Source of the DNA: a virus
Strand: one strand, 5' to 3'
DNA: 43,325 nt
Virus record (IMG/VR): IMGVR_UViG_3300036780_000152
Span: 1-43,325 of that record
The notes under the pieces were generated by a model. The model saw only the letters and a program-made list of their open reading frames with translations. It had not been told where the DNA came from and ran no database searches. A program made the position numbers and the translations under genes. This document shows positions 4,112-29,510 of the stretch, in pieces. The first letter of the stretch is position 1. Every line of letters starts with the position of its first letter.

Positions 4112-5446
4112 CTAGGCCGCGTTGACCAGCGGCATGATCGTGGCGGCTGGCGGCGTCAGGCCGGCCAGCGACCAGGCATCCACCGTGTCCGCCAGGATCA
4201 GATCGGCCCACGCGCAGGCAAGCGTGCGGCGCCGGTCATGATGTTGCGCGCGGTTGTAGCGGCCCTCCGCCGCGCTGACGCCAGCGGTGTTGCCGCCACC
4301 CTTATGCGCCAGCATGGCATCGATCACCGCGCGATCTTCGGGATACCGGTCGTTCATCAGCGTGGAGAAGCTGGCCCGCCAGCCGTGCGGCACATGCGGC
4401 ACCGGCAGTGCGGCGGCGCGCAGCAGAGTGCTGAACGCCACCTCACTGATCGGCTGCGCCGCCTGGCCGTGCGCGTCCTGCCGCTGCTTGGGACCGGGAA
4501 ACACCCAGGTCTGGTCGCGGTGCAGCGTGCGCGCCACCGTCAGCACTTCGACCGCTTGCGGTGACAGCGGCACGACATGCACGCGCTTGTGGTGTTTCTT
4601 GCCCTTCATCCGCGCCGCCGGGATGGTCCAGAGCGGCGCGTCGCCACCGAGGCCGGAAAACTCCGCCCAACGCGCGCCGCGTAGCTCCGCCGTGCGCAGC
4701 ATCGTCAGGACCAGCAGGCGGTGCGCCAGCAGCGTCACGGGATGCACGGTGGTGACCGCCTCGACCGCCGCCAGCACGCCGCGCGCGTCGGGCAGCGTCT
4801 CTGCCGCCGGGTGGGGCCGCGCCACCGGCTGCACGCAGCTTGCCGCCAGCAGCGCCGCCGGATCGTATTCCAACTCCATCGGTGCGGCGGCGTGCTGGAA
4901 CACGCACGAGATGTGCTGGCGCACCGCCAGAGCGGTCCACGGCGCTTCAGGTTCGATCGCGCGGATGACCGGCAGGATGGTTTTTGCCTTGATCCGCGCG
5001 ATAGGAAGATCGCCTAAGTCCTTGTAAACGTAGTTGACCATCTGCTGGCCGACCACCTTGGCGTAACGCGCCGTCCAGTGCGGCGCCTTCACGCGTTGCC
5101 AATCCTGCGCCCAGAAGCGGAACGTCTCGCCGGTTGCCGCGCTGCCGGCGGCGAGCGGTGCGGCCAGCCGTTTCTCAATGATCGGATCGCGACCCTGGCG
5201 CAGCAGCGCCTTGGCCGCGGTCAGCGCCTCGCGCGCTTGCGCCAGGCTGATGTCCGGCCATGGGCCGAACACCAGCGTGCGCTCACGGCCTTGGTAGATG
5301 TAGCGGAACCGCCAGACCTTGTTGCCCGCGGGCGTGATATAGAGGTAAAGCGAGCGGGCGTCGGCCAGCTTGTATGGCTTGTCCGCCGGCTTCGCGTCGC
5401 GGATCGCCGCGGTCGTGAGGCCCTTTGCCTTCCGCGCGTTTGTCAC
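4112..5446 (-). CDS. int: Tyrosine recombinase / phage integrase, P4-like
   Basis: The 444-aa protein has an N-terminal DUF4102-type arm-binding domain (about 10-95, AIRDAKPADKPYKLADA, LYLYITPAGNKVWRFRY), a core-binding domain (about 105-205) and a C-terminal catalytic domain. Catalytic residues visible are Arg256 (TAELRGARW), His354 and Arg357 (HGWR), His381 (LAHK) and Tyr397 (RYNRA). All key residues are present, so it should be active. It integrates or excises the phage at an att site. Translation starts at GTG overlapping the preceding stop (GTGA). A promoter with operator lies upstream at 5845-5890. An Ala/Gly insertion follows LAHK compared with the usual spacing to the tyrosine. Confidence 0.93.
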   Translation of the reverse strand: MTNARKAKGLTTAAIRDAKPADKPYKLADARSLYLYITPAGNKVWRFRYIYQGRERTLVFGPWPDISLAQAREALTAAKALLRQGRDPIIEKRLAAPLAAGSAATGETFRFWAQDWQRVKAPHWTARYAKVVGQQMVNYVYKDLGDLPIARIKAKTILPVIRAIEPEAPWTALAVRQHISCVFQHAAAPMELEYDPAALLAASCVQPVARPHPAAETLPDARGVLAAVEAVTTVHPVTLLAHRLLVLTMLRTAELRGARWAEFSGLGGDAPLWTIPAARMKGKKHHKRVHVVPLSPQAVEVLTVARTLHRDQTWVFPGPKQRQDAHGQAAQPISEVAFSTLLRAAALPVPHVPHGWRASFSTLMNDRYPEDRAVIDAMLAHKGGGNTAGVSAAEGRYNRAQHHDRRRTLACAWADLILADTVDAWSLAGLTPPAATIMPLVNAA

Positions 5447-7678: not shown

Positions 7679-8003
7679 CGTTCGTCACCATGCGTAGCGC
7701 CTCGGCGTGCCCCGCCAACGCCGCAGCACGCGTGGCGTAGTGCGCCTCAAAGCGATCGTGTGCGCCACCAAATATCATAGTCTCGAATACAAGCGGCTGC
7801 CTACGCGAATTACACAACCCGATAAAGACCGTGCTTACCAAGACATAACCAACGTGATCTTGCGCCACTGGCGTGCCGCAAGCGCCGGATTGCGCCCAGA
7901 CGATCACGTCTGGCTCGAAAACAGGCTCACCGTGTGCGTCGAGCGTATAGAGCATTGGCAACCGGTACGCACGCGATAGCGCCTGTTCGTTCTCGTCACT
8001 CAT
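7671..8003 (-). CDS. Conserved phage hypothetical protein (110 aa)
   Basis: The N-terminus MSDENEQALSRAYRLPMLYT with YTLDAHGEPVFEPD, the core VLVSTVFIGLCN, and the tail VFETMIFGGAHDRFEAHYAT with AAALAGHAEALR resemble a conserved small protein that I know from many phages and prophages. Its role is not established. It overlaps its upstream neighbour by 8 bases (ATGAGTGA). Confidence 0.65.
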   Translation of the reverse strand: MSDENEQALSRAYRLPMLYTLDAHGEPVFEPDVIVWAQSGACGTPVAQDHVGYVLVSTVFIGLCNSRRQPLVFETMIFGGAHDRFEAHYATRAAALAGHAEALRMVTNDG

Positions 8004-8280
8004 CGTCGTCCTCCAACGCCTTCGGTCCCGTTGTCACCTCCACGCGCAGCGTGCCGAGCGCGCCAGCCCAATACGACCAAATCGGTTGGTTCTGGCGCCA
8101 CAAGCTATCTACCGCGAGTTTCGTCAATAGCTGCCGCAATACGGCGACCTGCTCGTACTCAGCGAGAAGTTTGCGGGACCGTCGCAAATTTAGGTGCGCA
8201 AGCACGCCGTTGGCCGCGACGGTGGCGGCGCCGACGATGACGGTCGTTATCGGCATCCAGTCGCTATGTGCAGCACCCAT
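7996..8280 (-). CDS. Small single-span membrane protein
   Basis: A GGGGAGG ribosome site precedes ATG 8280. The 94-aa product has one N-terminal membrane helix (about 9-29, MPITTVIVGAATVAANGVLA) followed by a basic, coiled-coil-like helix (LRRSRKLLAEYEQVAVLRQL) and an acidic C-terminus. It is the first gene downstream of the tRNA at 8319. A membrane-anchored helper is likely; nothing more specific can be said. Confidence 0.6.
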   Translation of the reverse strand: MGAAHSDWMPITTVIVGAATVAANGVLAHLNLRRSRKLLAEYEQVAVLRQLLTKLAVDSLWRQNQPIWSYWAGALGTLRVEVTTGPKALEDDDE

Positions 8281-8318: not shown

Positions 8319-8411
8319 TGGCAGCGGCAGGGGGACTCGAACCCCCAAGCGCCTTTGGGGCACCCACGAGATTCACAGTCCCGCAGCGTCTACCAGTTCC
8401 GCTATGCCGCC
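8319..8411 (-). tRNA. Class II (Leu-like) tRNA with GTG (His) anticodon
   Basis: Reading leftwards, the acceptor GGCGGCA (8411-8405) pairs with TGCCGCT (8329-8323) with one G-U. Discriminator G and encoded CCA follow (8322-8319). The D arm is the Leu-type GCGGAACTGGTAGACGC. The anticodon stem CGGGA/TCTCG encloses loop CTGTGAA, anticodon GTG at 8376-8374. A 20-nt variable region forms a 5-bp stem (GTGCC/GGCGC), so it is class II. T arm GGGGG-TTCGAGT-CCCCC is perfect. Body type and anticodon disagree: no normal tRNA-His has a long variable arm. The stop codon of the upstream gene is formed by tRNA positions 8-10. Confidence 0.85.
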
Positions 8412-9130
8412 GCATGCTGATCAACTTTTGTCGCCCCCTGCCGTAGCCGCGGTGCGACTGCGCGATTGGCGAGGCGTTGCGTGTTCCGTGCGATCACGGA
8501 TTTCCGATCCACCATCAGCCGCCCCGGCAGGCCCTTTGTCGGCTTACCGCGAAACTCGGCGACGATCACCGCCGCAATCTCACCCGCCCAGATCCACTGG
8601 AATATCATCTGCCCGGCGCTATCCGGCCGCACGCCAGCCAGGATCTCCACCGCGTCATCCGTGGTGATATATCCGTCAGGCCGTTTTGCGACCGTCTTGC
8701 AGACCTGCCGCAACGACCGGCGGGGCGCTTTTGCGGCGGGAGTTTCCGCAGGGCGAGGCCGTGGGGCGGGCTGCGCTGGCACGGCTTCCGGTTGGCGCAC
8801 GGCCAGATCGAGCGGTCTGATCGCCGCCCTGGCACCCAACGAATACGGTTGCTCCGCATAGCGCTGCGATACCGGTGGCTCTGTGATGGCCGGCTCTACG
8901 ATGGCCGGTGGCCTAGCTGCATCCGGCAGCGGCTCCTGCGCTGCCTCGCGGGCCGGCGTGGCTGGCTGGTCAGCGGTGGCCTGACCGAGAAAAGCTGCCA
9001 GGATCGGATCGCGCGCCAGCGTCCTGACTGCGCTGACCAAGGCACGCGCCAGCGATCGGGCGAGCATATCGCCGATGCGGTCCATGTCATTGTCGTCCAG
9101 CGTCACTGTCAAGTCCGCCGCCAATCGCAT
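8402..9130 (-). CDS. Hypothetical protein ending inside the tRNA gene
   Basis: ATG 9130 is preceded by GGAGG at suitable distance, favouring it over the TTG at 9142. The 242-aa product has an N-terminal helical part (LDDNDMDRIGDMLARSLARA), a long Pro/Ala/Glu-rich linker, and a basic C-terminal domain (RRSLRQVCKTVAKRPDGYIT, then GQMIFQWIWAGEIAAVIVAE). The C-terminal part looks like a small DNA-binding fold but I cannot place it. An operator palindrome lies upstream at 9174-9188. Its TAG stop overlaps the tRNA by 10 bp. Confidence 0.6.
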   Translation of the reverse strand: MRLAADLTVTLDDNDMDRIGDMLARSLARALVSAVRTLARDPILAAFLGQATADQPATPAREAAQEPLPDAARPPAIVEPAITEPPVSQRYAEQPYSLGARAAIRPLDLAVRQPEAVPAQPAPRPRPAETPAAKAPRRSLRQVCKTVAKRPDGYITTDDAVEILAGVRPDSAGQMIFQWIWAGEIAAVIVAEFRGKPTKGLPGRLMVDRKSVIARNTQRLANRAVAPRLRQGATKVDQHAAA

Positions 9131-9173
9131 GACGTCCTCCAAGATCGTCGGATCGCGGCACGCTACGGCATAG

Positions 9174-9196
9174 TTGCCGTGAGGGCAAGCGTATCA
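9174..9196 (-). promoter_or_regulatory. TTGCC-N5-GGCAA operator with -10-like box upstream of 9130 gene
   Basis: The palindrome at 9174-9188 reads TTGCC-GTGAG-GGCAA on the plus strand. On the minus strand it is preceded, two bases away, by TGATAC (9196-9191), which keeps the -10/2 bp/operator spacing seen at stronger sites. The matching -35 position is poor. It lies between GcrA and the next leftward gene, so it probably adds a repressible start inside the long operon. Confidence 0.5.
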
Positions 9197-9775
9197 GACT
9201 CGCGCCGCGCCGCCCAGCGCGCCCACGGTGAGTGGCCTGGTGGGTTGGTAGGCGAGTGCCGCGTGGGCGGCGCAAAACGGGGTGCCGGCCGCCACCTCCG
9301 GGTCATCGCAGAACCGCCAGGGCCGGCCCTCTGATAGCGGCCATTGGCACATATCCGCCAACGGCCGTGCGCCGCGCCGCGCCGCGCATGGCACGGGTGC
9401 GCGAGCCGCCGGCTCGTGGACGATTTGCGGCGCCGAATGCGGATTGAGCCGCGCAGCCGGCGACGGCAATAGACCGCCCTCTGCTTCGTAGATGTCACGG
9501 CGGTGGCGCAGTGTTGATGTATTGAGGCCGAACGCGGCTGCGACCTGGTGCCAATCCGCGCCCTTGACGCGCATGGCGGCGACCTGTTCCCAGTCCACAA
9601 CCTTGTGCCGTTGCACGAATACCGATGGGCCGTGAGGCTGCAACTTCATGCGCCGCACCCGGCCCGTCACCGATCCCTTTGTGCAGCGCAGCCGCTGCGC
9701 AATCTCGGGGGCCGAAAGCCCTTCCACCTCCCACCACTGCCGGATCTGCTCCGCCTCAGAATCGTCATGCGTCAC
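9194..9775 (-). CDS. GcrA-family cell-cycle regulator homolog
   Basis: The N-terminus (about 8-46) is an HTH: IRQWWEVEGLSAPEIAQRLR then GSVTGRVRRMKL. The C-terminus (about 145-178) carries the GcrA Cys/His signature CQWPLSEGRPWRFCDD followed by CAAHAALAY. GcrA proteins, known from alphaproteobacteria, contact RNA polymerase sigma70 holoenzyme at promoters with CcrM-methylated GANTC sites. A phage copy could redirect host cell-cycle transcription. A second HTH-like segment lies between. Start is GTG 9775, overlapping a stop codon (GTGA). Confidence 0.8.
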   Translation of the reverse strand: MTHDDSEAEQIRQWWEVEGLSAPEIAQRLRCTKGSVTGRVRRMKLQPHGPSVFVQRHKVVDWEQVAAMRVKGADWHQVAAAFGLNTSTLRHRRDIYEAEGGLLPSPAARLNPHSAPQIVHEPAARAPVPCAARRGARPLADMCQWPLSEGRPWRFCDDPEVAAGTPFCAAHAALAYQPTRPLTVGALGGAARV

Positions 9776-29091: not shown

Positions 29092-29166
29092 GCCGCGGTA
29101 GCTCAATGCTAGAGCAGCCACCTCGTCAGTGGTTGATGCCGGTTCAATTCCGTGCCCGCGGCTCCA
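29092..29166 (+). tRNA. tRNA-Thr(CGT)-like gene with altered D and T arms
   Basis: Acceptor GCCGCGG/CCGCGGC pairs perfectly, followed by T73 and an encoded CCA (29164-29166). D arm GCTC-AATGCTA-GAGC has GC where the usual GG stands. Anticodon stem GCCAC/GTGGT holds loop CTCGTCA, anticodon CGT (Thr, ACG). T stem GCCGG/CCG-T-GC carries a bulged T. T73 and the bulge are unusual; the molecule may still fold. It could be functional or decaying. Confidence 0.6.
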
Positions 29167-29252
29167 TCCGCCCCCAGGGCCAGCTTCAGCCTTATCGTCA
29201 GCTTCAGACGCCAGCTTCAGCGTCTTGCCCTGTAGCTTTATGAGTGCGTATC

Positions 29253-29317
29253 TGGAACTAGCTGCGACGGCATCCCGAGACCGCAAGACGCCGGTTCAAA
29301 TCCGGCCGCTCCAGCCA
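29253..29317 (+). pseudogene. tRNA remnant (intact 3' half)
   Basis: The 3' half is perfect: T stem GCCGG-TTCAAAT-CCGGC (29290-29306), acceptor strand CGCTCCA, G and CCA (29307-29317). Upstream, only TGGAACT (29253-29259) partly matches the needed TGGAGCG, and no anticodon arm can be drawn; the interval is about 10 nt too short. U1-A72 with G73 would fit a former tRNA-Gln, but this is a guess. It might also be the 3'-tRNA part of an attachment site. Confidence 0.5.
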
Positions 29318-29399
29318 TCATCCCTGATGGAGCGTAGCACAGTGGGCGTGCGTGCGGATCAGCATGAGGTGTCACGTCAGCGAAAGCCAGTGTGCAACT

Positions 29400-29472
29400 A
29401 CGGGTCTAGCTCAGTTGGTAGAGCACCAGATTTAAGATCTGGGTGTCGCTGGTTCGATCCCGGCGACCCAAA
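29400..29472 (+). tRNA. Class I tRNA-like gene with TAA (Leu) anticodon
   Basis: D arm GCTCAGTTGGTAGAGC, anticodon stem CCAGA/TCTGG, loop TTTAAGA with anticodon TAA (29433-29435), 5-nt variable loop and T arm GCTGG-TTCGATC-CCGGC are normal class I features. The acceptor has only 5 pairs (GGGTC/GACCC) and no CCA follows. Bacterial tRNA-Leu should be class II with a long variable arm, so anticodon and body disagree here too. The gene may be decaying or need 3' repair. Confidence 0.6.
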
Positions 29473-29510
29473 CATCGGGCGCGGGGTAGGCAATGCCCCG
29501 CGCCTACCGT

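Follow-up and report, generated by a model that had tools for sequence, protein, structure and literature searches.

A class II tRNA gene with a histidine anticodon

The window, meaning the whole stretch of 43,325 nucleotides that was analysed, is the IMG/VR virus record IMGVR_UViG_3300036780_000152. Its minus strand carries, at 8411..8319, a 93-nucleotide class II tRNA gene with the anticodon GUG and an encoded CCA. ARAGORN calls one tRNA-His(gtg) at 8319-8411, and the Rfam model RF00005 matches 8322-8411 on the minus strand with 42.1 bits (E 1e-5) against a gathering score of 29, which places the gene among tRNAs. The tRNA reads GGCGGCA UA GCG GAACUGGUAGA CGC U GCGGGA CUGUGAA UCUCGU GG GUGCC CCAAA GGCGC UU GGGGG UUCGAGU CCCCC UGCCGCU G CCA. 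The acceptor stem has 7 base pairs and begins with G1.U72, the T stem has 5 pairs within a perfect T arm, the D arm is of the Leu type and both loops, D and T, retain their motifs. The variable region of about 20 nucleotides contains its own 5-bp stem, which assigns the tRNA to class II. The discriminator is G73 and position -1 is C (U in the relative described below). The anticodon loop CUGUGAA (8372..8378, minus strand, with GUG at 8376-8374) is closed by a 6-bp stem, GCGGGA/UCUCGU, also seen in the ARAGORN drawing of the relative's copy. This stem has a G.U pair at its base, can alternatively be read as an extra nucleotide at 26, and makes the stretch from the D stem to the anticodon loop one nucleotide longer than in a usual tRNA.

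The core of the tRNA is Leu-like: it has A14, A15 and U48, and two 3' bases at the variable stem are unpaired. In a comparison that masks the anticodon, tRNA-Leu and Leu-bodied tRNA-His come closest. A match of the 3' third to tRNA-Trp (93% over 30 nucleotides), considered as a sign of a tRNA-Trp origin of that part, is short and could not be told apart from general tRNA conservation. The first-pass annotation had recognized a complete class II tRNA with a His anticodon, paired arms, encoded CCA, Leu-type D arm, 5-bp variable stem and G discriminator, all of which the sequence, ARAGORN and Rfam bear out. The G1.U72 pair and the 6-bp anticodon stem had escaped it. Folding of the naked RNA, computed without modifications or tertiary contacts, gives -37.3 kcal/mol for the cloverleaf against -46.3 kcal/mol for the minimum-energy fold, an advantage of 9 kcal/mol for the alternative.

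Neighboring genes and likely host

The tRNA gene overlaps an upstream open reading frame (8402..9142, minus strand; 246 amino acids from the first TTG, no family match), whose TAG stop codon coincides with tRNA nucleotides 8-10. The overlap is kept in both known copies, and the tRNA and the mRNA of this reading frame thus probably share a transcript. The downstream reading frame (7996..8280, minus strand) encodes 94 amino acids without a family match, and the relative's copy is 99% identical. A tyrosine integrase with Arm-DNA-bind_3 and Phage_integrase domains is encoded at 4112..5446 on the minus strand, which marks the phage as temperate. The nearest plasmid-borne relatives of the integrase come from Phyllobacterium and Sphingomonas. 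A GcrA-like protein (9194..9775, minus strand; Pfam GcrA, 46.7 bits) points to an alphaproteobacterial host. A search of this protein against plasmids gave no match.

The motif GANTC occurs 34 times in the window against about 145 expected. The count is 0.24 of the dinucleotide expectation, the lowest ratio among all 16 palindromes of the same form, next to CTNAG. Two of the 34 sites fall inside the 93-nucleotide tRNA gene. A shortage of GANTC has been reported in Alphaproteobacteria bearing CcrM (PMC3973325). The GcrA-like protein, the affinity of the integrase and the GANTC depletion together indicate an alphaproteobacterial host with CcrM, and we consider the host to be probably an alphaproteobacterium on the basis of these genomic signals. 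A search for CtrA boxes was uninformative. Histidine makes up an ordinary 2.4% of codons.

Two further tRNA genes lie at 29092-29166 and 29400-29473. Compared with the relative (L121), they differ mainly in the anticodon loops (5/14 loop positions against 3/135 elsewhere; Fisher p 1.7e-4). The first pair of loops has CGU in the window and UGU in the relative. In the second pair the window loop is UUUAAGA, which puts the anticodon UAA on a tRNA of class I, and the relative's loop is AUUGUAA (UGU). Both genes have arm defects. The first lacks G18G19 and has a mismatched T stem, and the second has mismatches at 1-72 and 2-71. Between them, positions 29250-29318 resemble the 3' half of a tRNA (T arm, CGCTCCA, GCCA). 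ARAGORN does not call this element, the relative has the identical sequence, and it may be a degenerate tRNA-Gln.

Conservation in a single close relative

The only close relative found in IMG/VR is IMGVR_UViG_3300036800_000162 (62.5 kb), with DNA 92-98% identical to the window. In this relative the tRNA gene occupies the equivalent position, has GUG as well and matches the window copy at 92 of 93 bases. The single substitution converts the anticodon-stem G.U into G-C and keeps the pairing. Looking for the gene in related phages had been proposed in the first-pass annotation, and the relative indeed has GUG there and not a normal Leu anticodon. The identical loop also rules out a sequencing error at the anticodon. 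Because the surroundings are 98% identical as well (539/550), two genomes cannot prove selection on the tRNA. Searching with the terminase and RecT genes led to six additional records of more distant relatives, several being fragments, and no tRNA was detected in any. Searches of named phages by DNA, terminase and tRNA recovered no close relative. A wider IMG/VR search for other class II GUG tRNAs with U72-R73-CCA returned 37 stretches, among which the sole such tRNA was that of the known relative.

Identity elements of the tRNA

The tRNA departs from the canonical bacterial tRNA-His, which has G-1 and C73, with C (or U in the relative) at position -1 and G at 73. In a clade comprising Rhodobacteraceae, Rhizobiales, Caulobacterales and Hyphomonadaceae, tRNA-His lacks G-1 and has G1.U72 and A73, and the HisRS recognizes U72, A73 and the anticodon (PMC7590224; PMC9976931; PMC3937112). 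We saw G1.U72-A73 directly in the tRNA-His of Shinella and Sinorhizobium. An alphaproteobacterial HisRS also charges engineered class II tRNAs with G1:U72-A73 (PMC7590224), and the length of the variable arm is therefore not an obstacle. A73 has been described as critical for the non-canonical type of HisRS (PMC7590224). The window tRNA has the GUG anticodon and G1.U72 without G-1, and in place of A73 it has G73, in both the window and the relative. Two of the three determinants (U72 and GUG) are thus present.

Phages of such hosts provide parallels. The tRNA-His of Agrobacterium phage Atu_ph07 has G1.U72-A73, and that of Caulobacter phage CcrPW has U1.U72-A73. The Caulobacter phages of the genus Bertelyvirus (CcrBL9, CcrSC, RB23 and BL47) encode an ordinary tRNA-His whose end, G1.U72-G73, is that of the window tRNA, so that the set of U72, G73 and GUG recurs in these phages. 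The acceptor pairs covary among the Bertelyvirus genes (L148 3399-3470; L149-L152). Phage tRNA-His thus seem, from their acceptor ends, to track the HisRS type of the host. CcrBL9 also encodes a class II tRNA of 87 nucleotides (L148 2876-2962) whose anticodon is that of Lys (CUU) and whose discriminator is U73.

In E. coli, LeuRS ignores the anticodon, A73 is crucial for leucine identity and G73 acts as an antideterminant (PMC9976931). SerRS does not read the anticodon either and selects on tertiary shape, with C72 as a determinant and G1-C72 conserved in most bacterial tRNA-Ser (PMC9976931). All 55 Leu tRNAs that we collected have A73 (55/55; lacking in 0/55), and the G73 of the window tRNA sets it apart from them. 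G73 and the large variable region are as in tRNA-Ser, and C72 of the G1-C72 pair is replaced by U72. U72 combined with G73 is absent from both collected sets (0/55 Leu, 0/38 Ser). G1.U72 by itself is not uncommon, being present in 32 of 274 tRNAs in the collected loci (12%) and in 17 of 55 tRNA-Leu (31%). These control frequencies weaken G1.U72 as proof of histidine identity, and the argument for histidine therefore rests on the combination. The pair itself may have been inherited from a Leu ancestor.

Leu-bodied tRNAs in other genomes

A pattern scan of IMG/VR for a Leu-type D arm with a CUGUGAA loop retrieved many tRNA-His, mostly class I with G-1:C73. Apart from the relative, the class II scan yielded L098, L112, L133, L139 and L141, all with G-1:C73. 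A Curtobacterium plasmid (D40) likewise carries a Leu-bodied class II tRNA-His with G-1:C73. Judging from these sequences, phages seem to convert Leu-bodied tRNAs to tRNA-His repeatedly and to add the His determinant. We found no description of Leu-bodied phage tRNA-His in a literature search of open-licence papers. The first-pass annotation had considered neither these canonical forms in other phages nor the alphaproteobacterial histidine identity of G1.U72, A73 and GUG. Five IMG/VR contigs (L185, L186, L190, L191 and L210) encode a 94-nucleotide tRNA-Ile(UAU) with a long variable arm.

Among 84,980 bacterial and archaeal species genomes, the D-arm and loop pattern had a single match, in a Gemmatimonadetes metagenome-assembled genome. 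This genome encodes Leu-bodied class II tRNAs with GUG, GCG and GAC anticodons, each with A73 (L132 6566-6648 (-); L258; L262; L264), and a relative from the same family has the GCG form. The GUG tRNA is the only one with that anticodon among the 43 tRNAs found in an assembly that is possibly incomplete. Since the Leu discriminator A73 is retained, the Gemmatimonadetes tRNAs are predicted to be better candidates for leucine mischarging than the window tRNA.

A leucine tRNA likely remodelled for histidine

We suggest, with a probability of about 0.5, that the gene encodes a Leu-bodied tRNA re-identified as a tRNA-His for an alphaproteobacterial HisRS. An ancestral tRNA-Leu would have gained the GUG anticodon and lost its leucine identity through a change from A73 to G73. 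The acceptor end would now present G1.U72. With this pair and GUG, the tRNA would fit two of the three features that the non-canonical HisRS recognizes (U72, A73, GUG). The HisRS would charge the tRNA with histidine, and CAC and CAU would be read as His. The phage might thereby add to, or protect, the supply of His-tRNA in infected or lysogenic cells. As part of this reading we infer that the host belongs to the clade with the non-canonical HisRS. Using U72 as an argument for the HisRS clade of the host would be circular. Some Alphaproteobacteria, for example Sphingomonadales, have an ordinary G-1:C73 tRNA-His.

Histidine charging is favored because U72-G73 is absent from the collected Leu and Ser tRNAs and because phages of such hosts keep U72. 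Re-identification appears to be a recurrent process, since Leu-bodied class II tRNA-His with G-1:C73 exist in other phages and on the Curtobacterium plasmid. The most serious objection is G73, given that A73 is critical. The sole parallel for tolerance of G73 is Bertelyvirus, where charging is itself putative. The 6-bp anticodon stem could impair decoding, and the more stable alternative fold of the naked RNA, the commonness of G1.U72 and the ordinary share of His codons also count against histidine charging. The origin proposed in the first-pass annotation, a GAG-to-GUG change in a tRNA-Leu, holds for the Leu body and for a change of the anticodon, in line with the masked-anticodon neighbors. 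A simple point change does not account for the loop, as other loop positions are also unlike a typical Leu(GAG) loop.

A remodelled histidine tRNA is most likely a better description of the gene than a mistranslation device. Charging with Leu or Ser had been raised as a possibility in the first-pass annotation. Leucine charging, which would place Leu at His codons, agrees with the Leu-type body and its masked-anticodon neighbors and with a LeuRS indifferent to the anticodon. The invariant A73 of tRNA-Leu and the antideterminant G73 make it the least probable of all explanations. Serine has more in its favor. SerRS might charge the tRNA through the long variable arm and G73, which would make it an allo-tRNA-like mistranslating tRNA that places Ser at His codons in infected cells. 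The bacterial Ser elements G73, large variable region, G2-C71, C11-G24 and G30-C40 are all present, the anticodon is not read by SerRS (PMC9976931), and most allo-tRNAs have non-Ser anticodons (PMC7609411). However, U72 replaces the determinant C72 in a combination found in none of the 38 Ser tRNAs, the core is Leu-like while SerRS selects on tertiary shape, and the acceptor branch is 7/5 and not the 8/4 or 9/3 of allo-tRNAs. Serine charging is thus rather unlikely. A shade less likely is that charging with Ser, or partly with Ser and partly with His, creates a statistical proteome in the host with Ser at His codons, the gene then encoding a mistranslating tRNA of viral origin whose acceptor end is a mosaic.

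Other explanations concern the use of the gene more than its amino acid. The tRNA might be a decoy or a replacement countering tRNA-cleaving defenses, its altered body and anticodon arm resisting or absorbing an anticodon nuclease directed at tRNAs of the His or Leu type. Altered anticodon loops in phage tRNAs have been described as a probable means of resisting VapC-type nucleases (PMC10264068), and the loop differences of the two other tRNA genes would fit such pressure, yet the loop of the class II tRNA is unchanged between window and relative and no defense target is known. We regard this role as distinctly improbable, and a replacement tRNA would still need histidine charging, which is compatible with re-identification. 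Alternatively, the integrase could disrupt a host tRNA gene without restoring it, with the phage tRNA as the substitute. Such tRNA-dependent lysogeny is known in actinobacteriophages, where the phage encodes a tRNA of the disrupted isotype (PMC10865867), and the integrase of this temperate phage lies 3 kb away on the same strand. Against this, no attP or attB is known, a search near the integrase found no match to a tRNA 3' end, and the tabulated examples are Lys, Ile2 and Leu, none being His (PMC10865867). This very unlikely scenario also needs histidine charging and would extend rather than oppose re-identification. Decay into a gene without a role could be read from the extra nucleotide at 26, the more stable alternative fold, the arm defects of the other two tRNA genes and a conservation no stronger than in the surroundings. 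The paired arms, encoded CCA, intact D- and T-loop motifs and a substitution that keeps pairing speak against decay and make it remote.

If re-identification as a histidine tRNA is right, the gene would be a natural case of a virus shifting a tRNA between isotypes, with an acceptor end tuned to the histidine rules of a host clade. In the present sample, G-1:C73 or U72 in a phage tRNA-His would then report the HisRS type of the host.

Comparison with known tRNAs

The tRNA-His of Rhizobiales, Rhodobacteraceae and Caulobacterales and of Bertelyvirus, Atu_ph07 and CcrPW share GUG, the lack of G-1 and U72 with the window tRNA, and Bertelyvirus shares the complete G1.U72-G73 end. These non-canonical tRNA-His belong to class I, their variable loop is short and their anticodon stem has 5 base pairs, whereas the window tRNA is class II with a 6-bp stem, and the bacterial ones have A73 where the window tRNA has G73. 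Allo-tRNAs are likewise class II with an anticodon other than Leu, Ser or Tyr and with G73, but they have Ser identity, and the window tRNA differs in its 7/5 branch, Leu-type core and U72. Nematode nev-tRNAs and bacterial tRNA-ProX, both natural mistranslating tRNAs, also have a body and an anticodon that belong to different isotypes. They keep the acceptor identity of the body, whereas the window tRNA has lost the Leu discriminator. The Leu-bodied tRNA-His of L098, L112, L133, L139, L141 and Curtobacterium D40 share the Leu-type D arm, long variable arm and GUG, and some of them even the CUGUGAA loop. They have G-1:C73 and a 5-bp anticodon stem, in contrast to U72-G73, no G-1 and 6 base pairs in the window. 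If HisRS charges it, the window tRNA would function as a tRNA-His. It has neither G-1:C73 nor the A73 of alphaproteobacterial tRNA-His, the A73 of Leu, the C72 of Ser and the branch of allo-tRNAs are missing too, and we therefore call it, on the strength of its sequence, a putative variant of the phage Leu-bodied tRNA-His.
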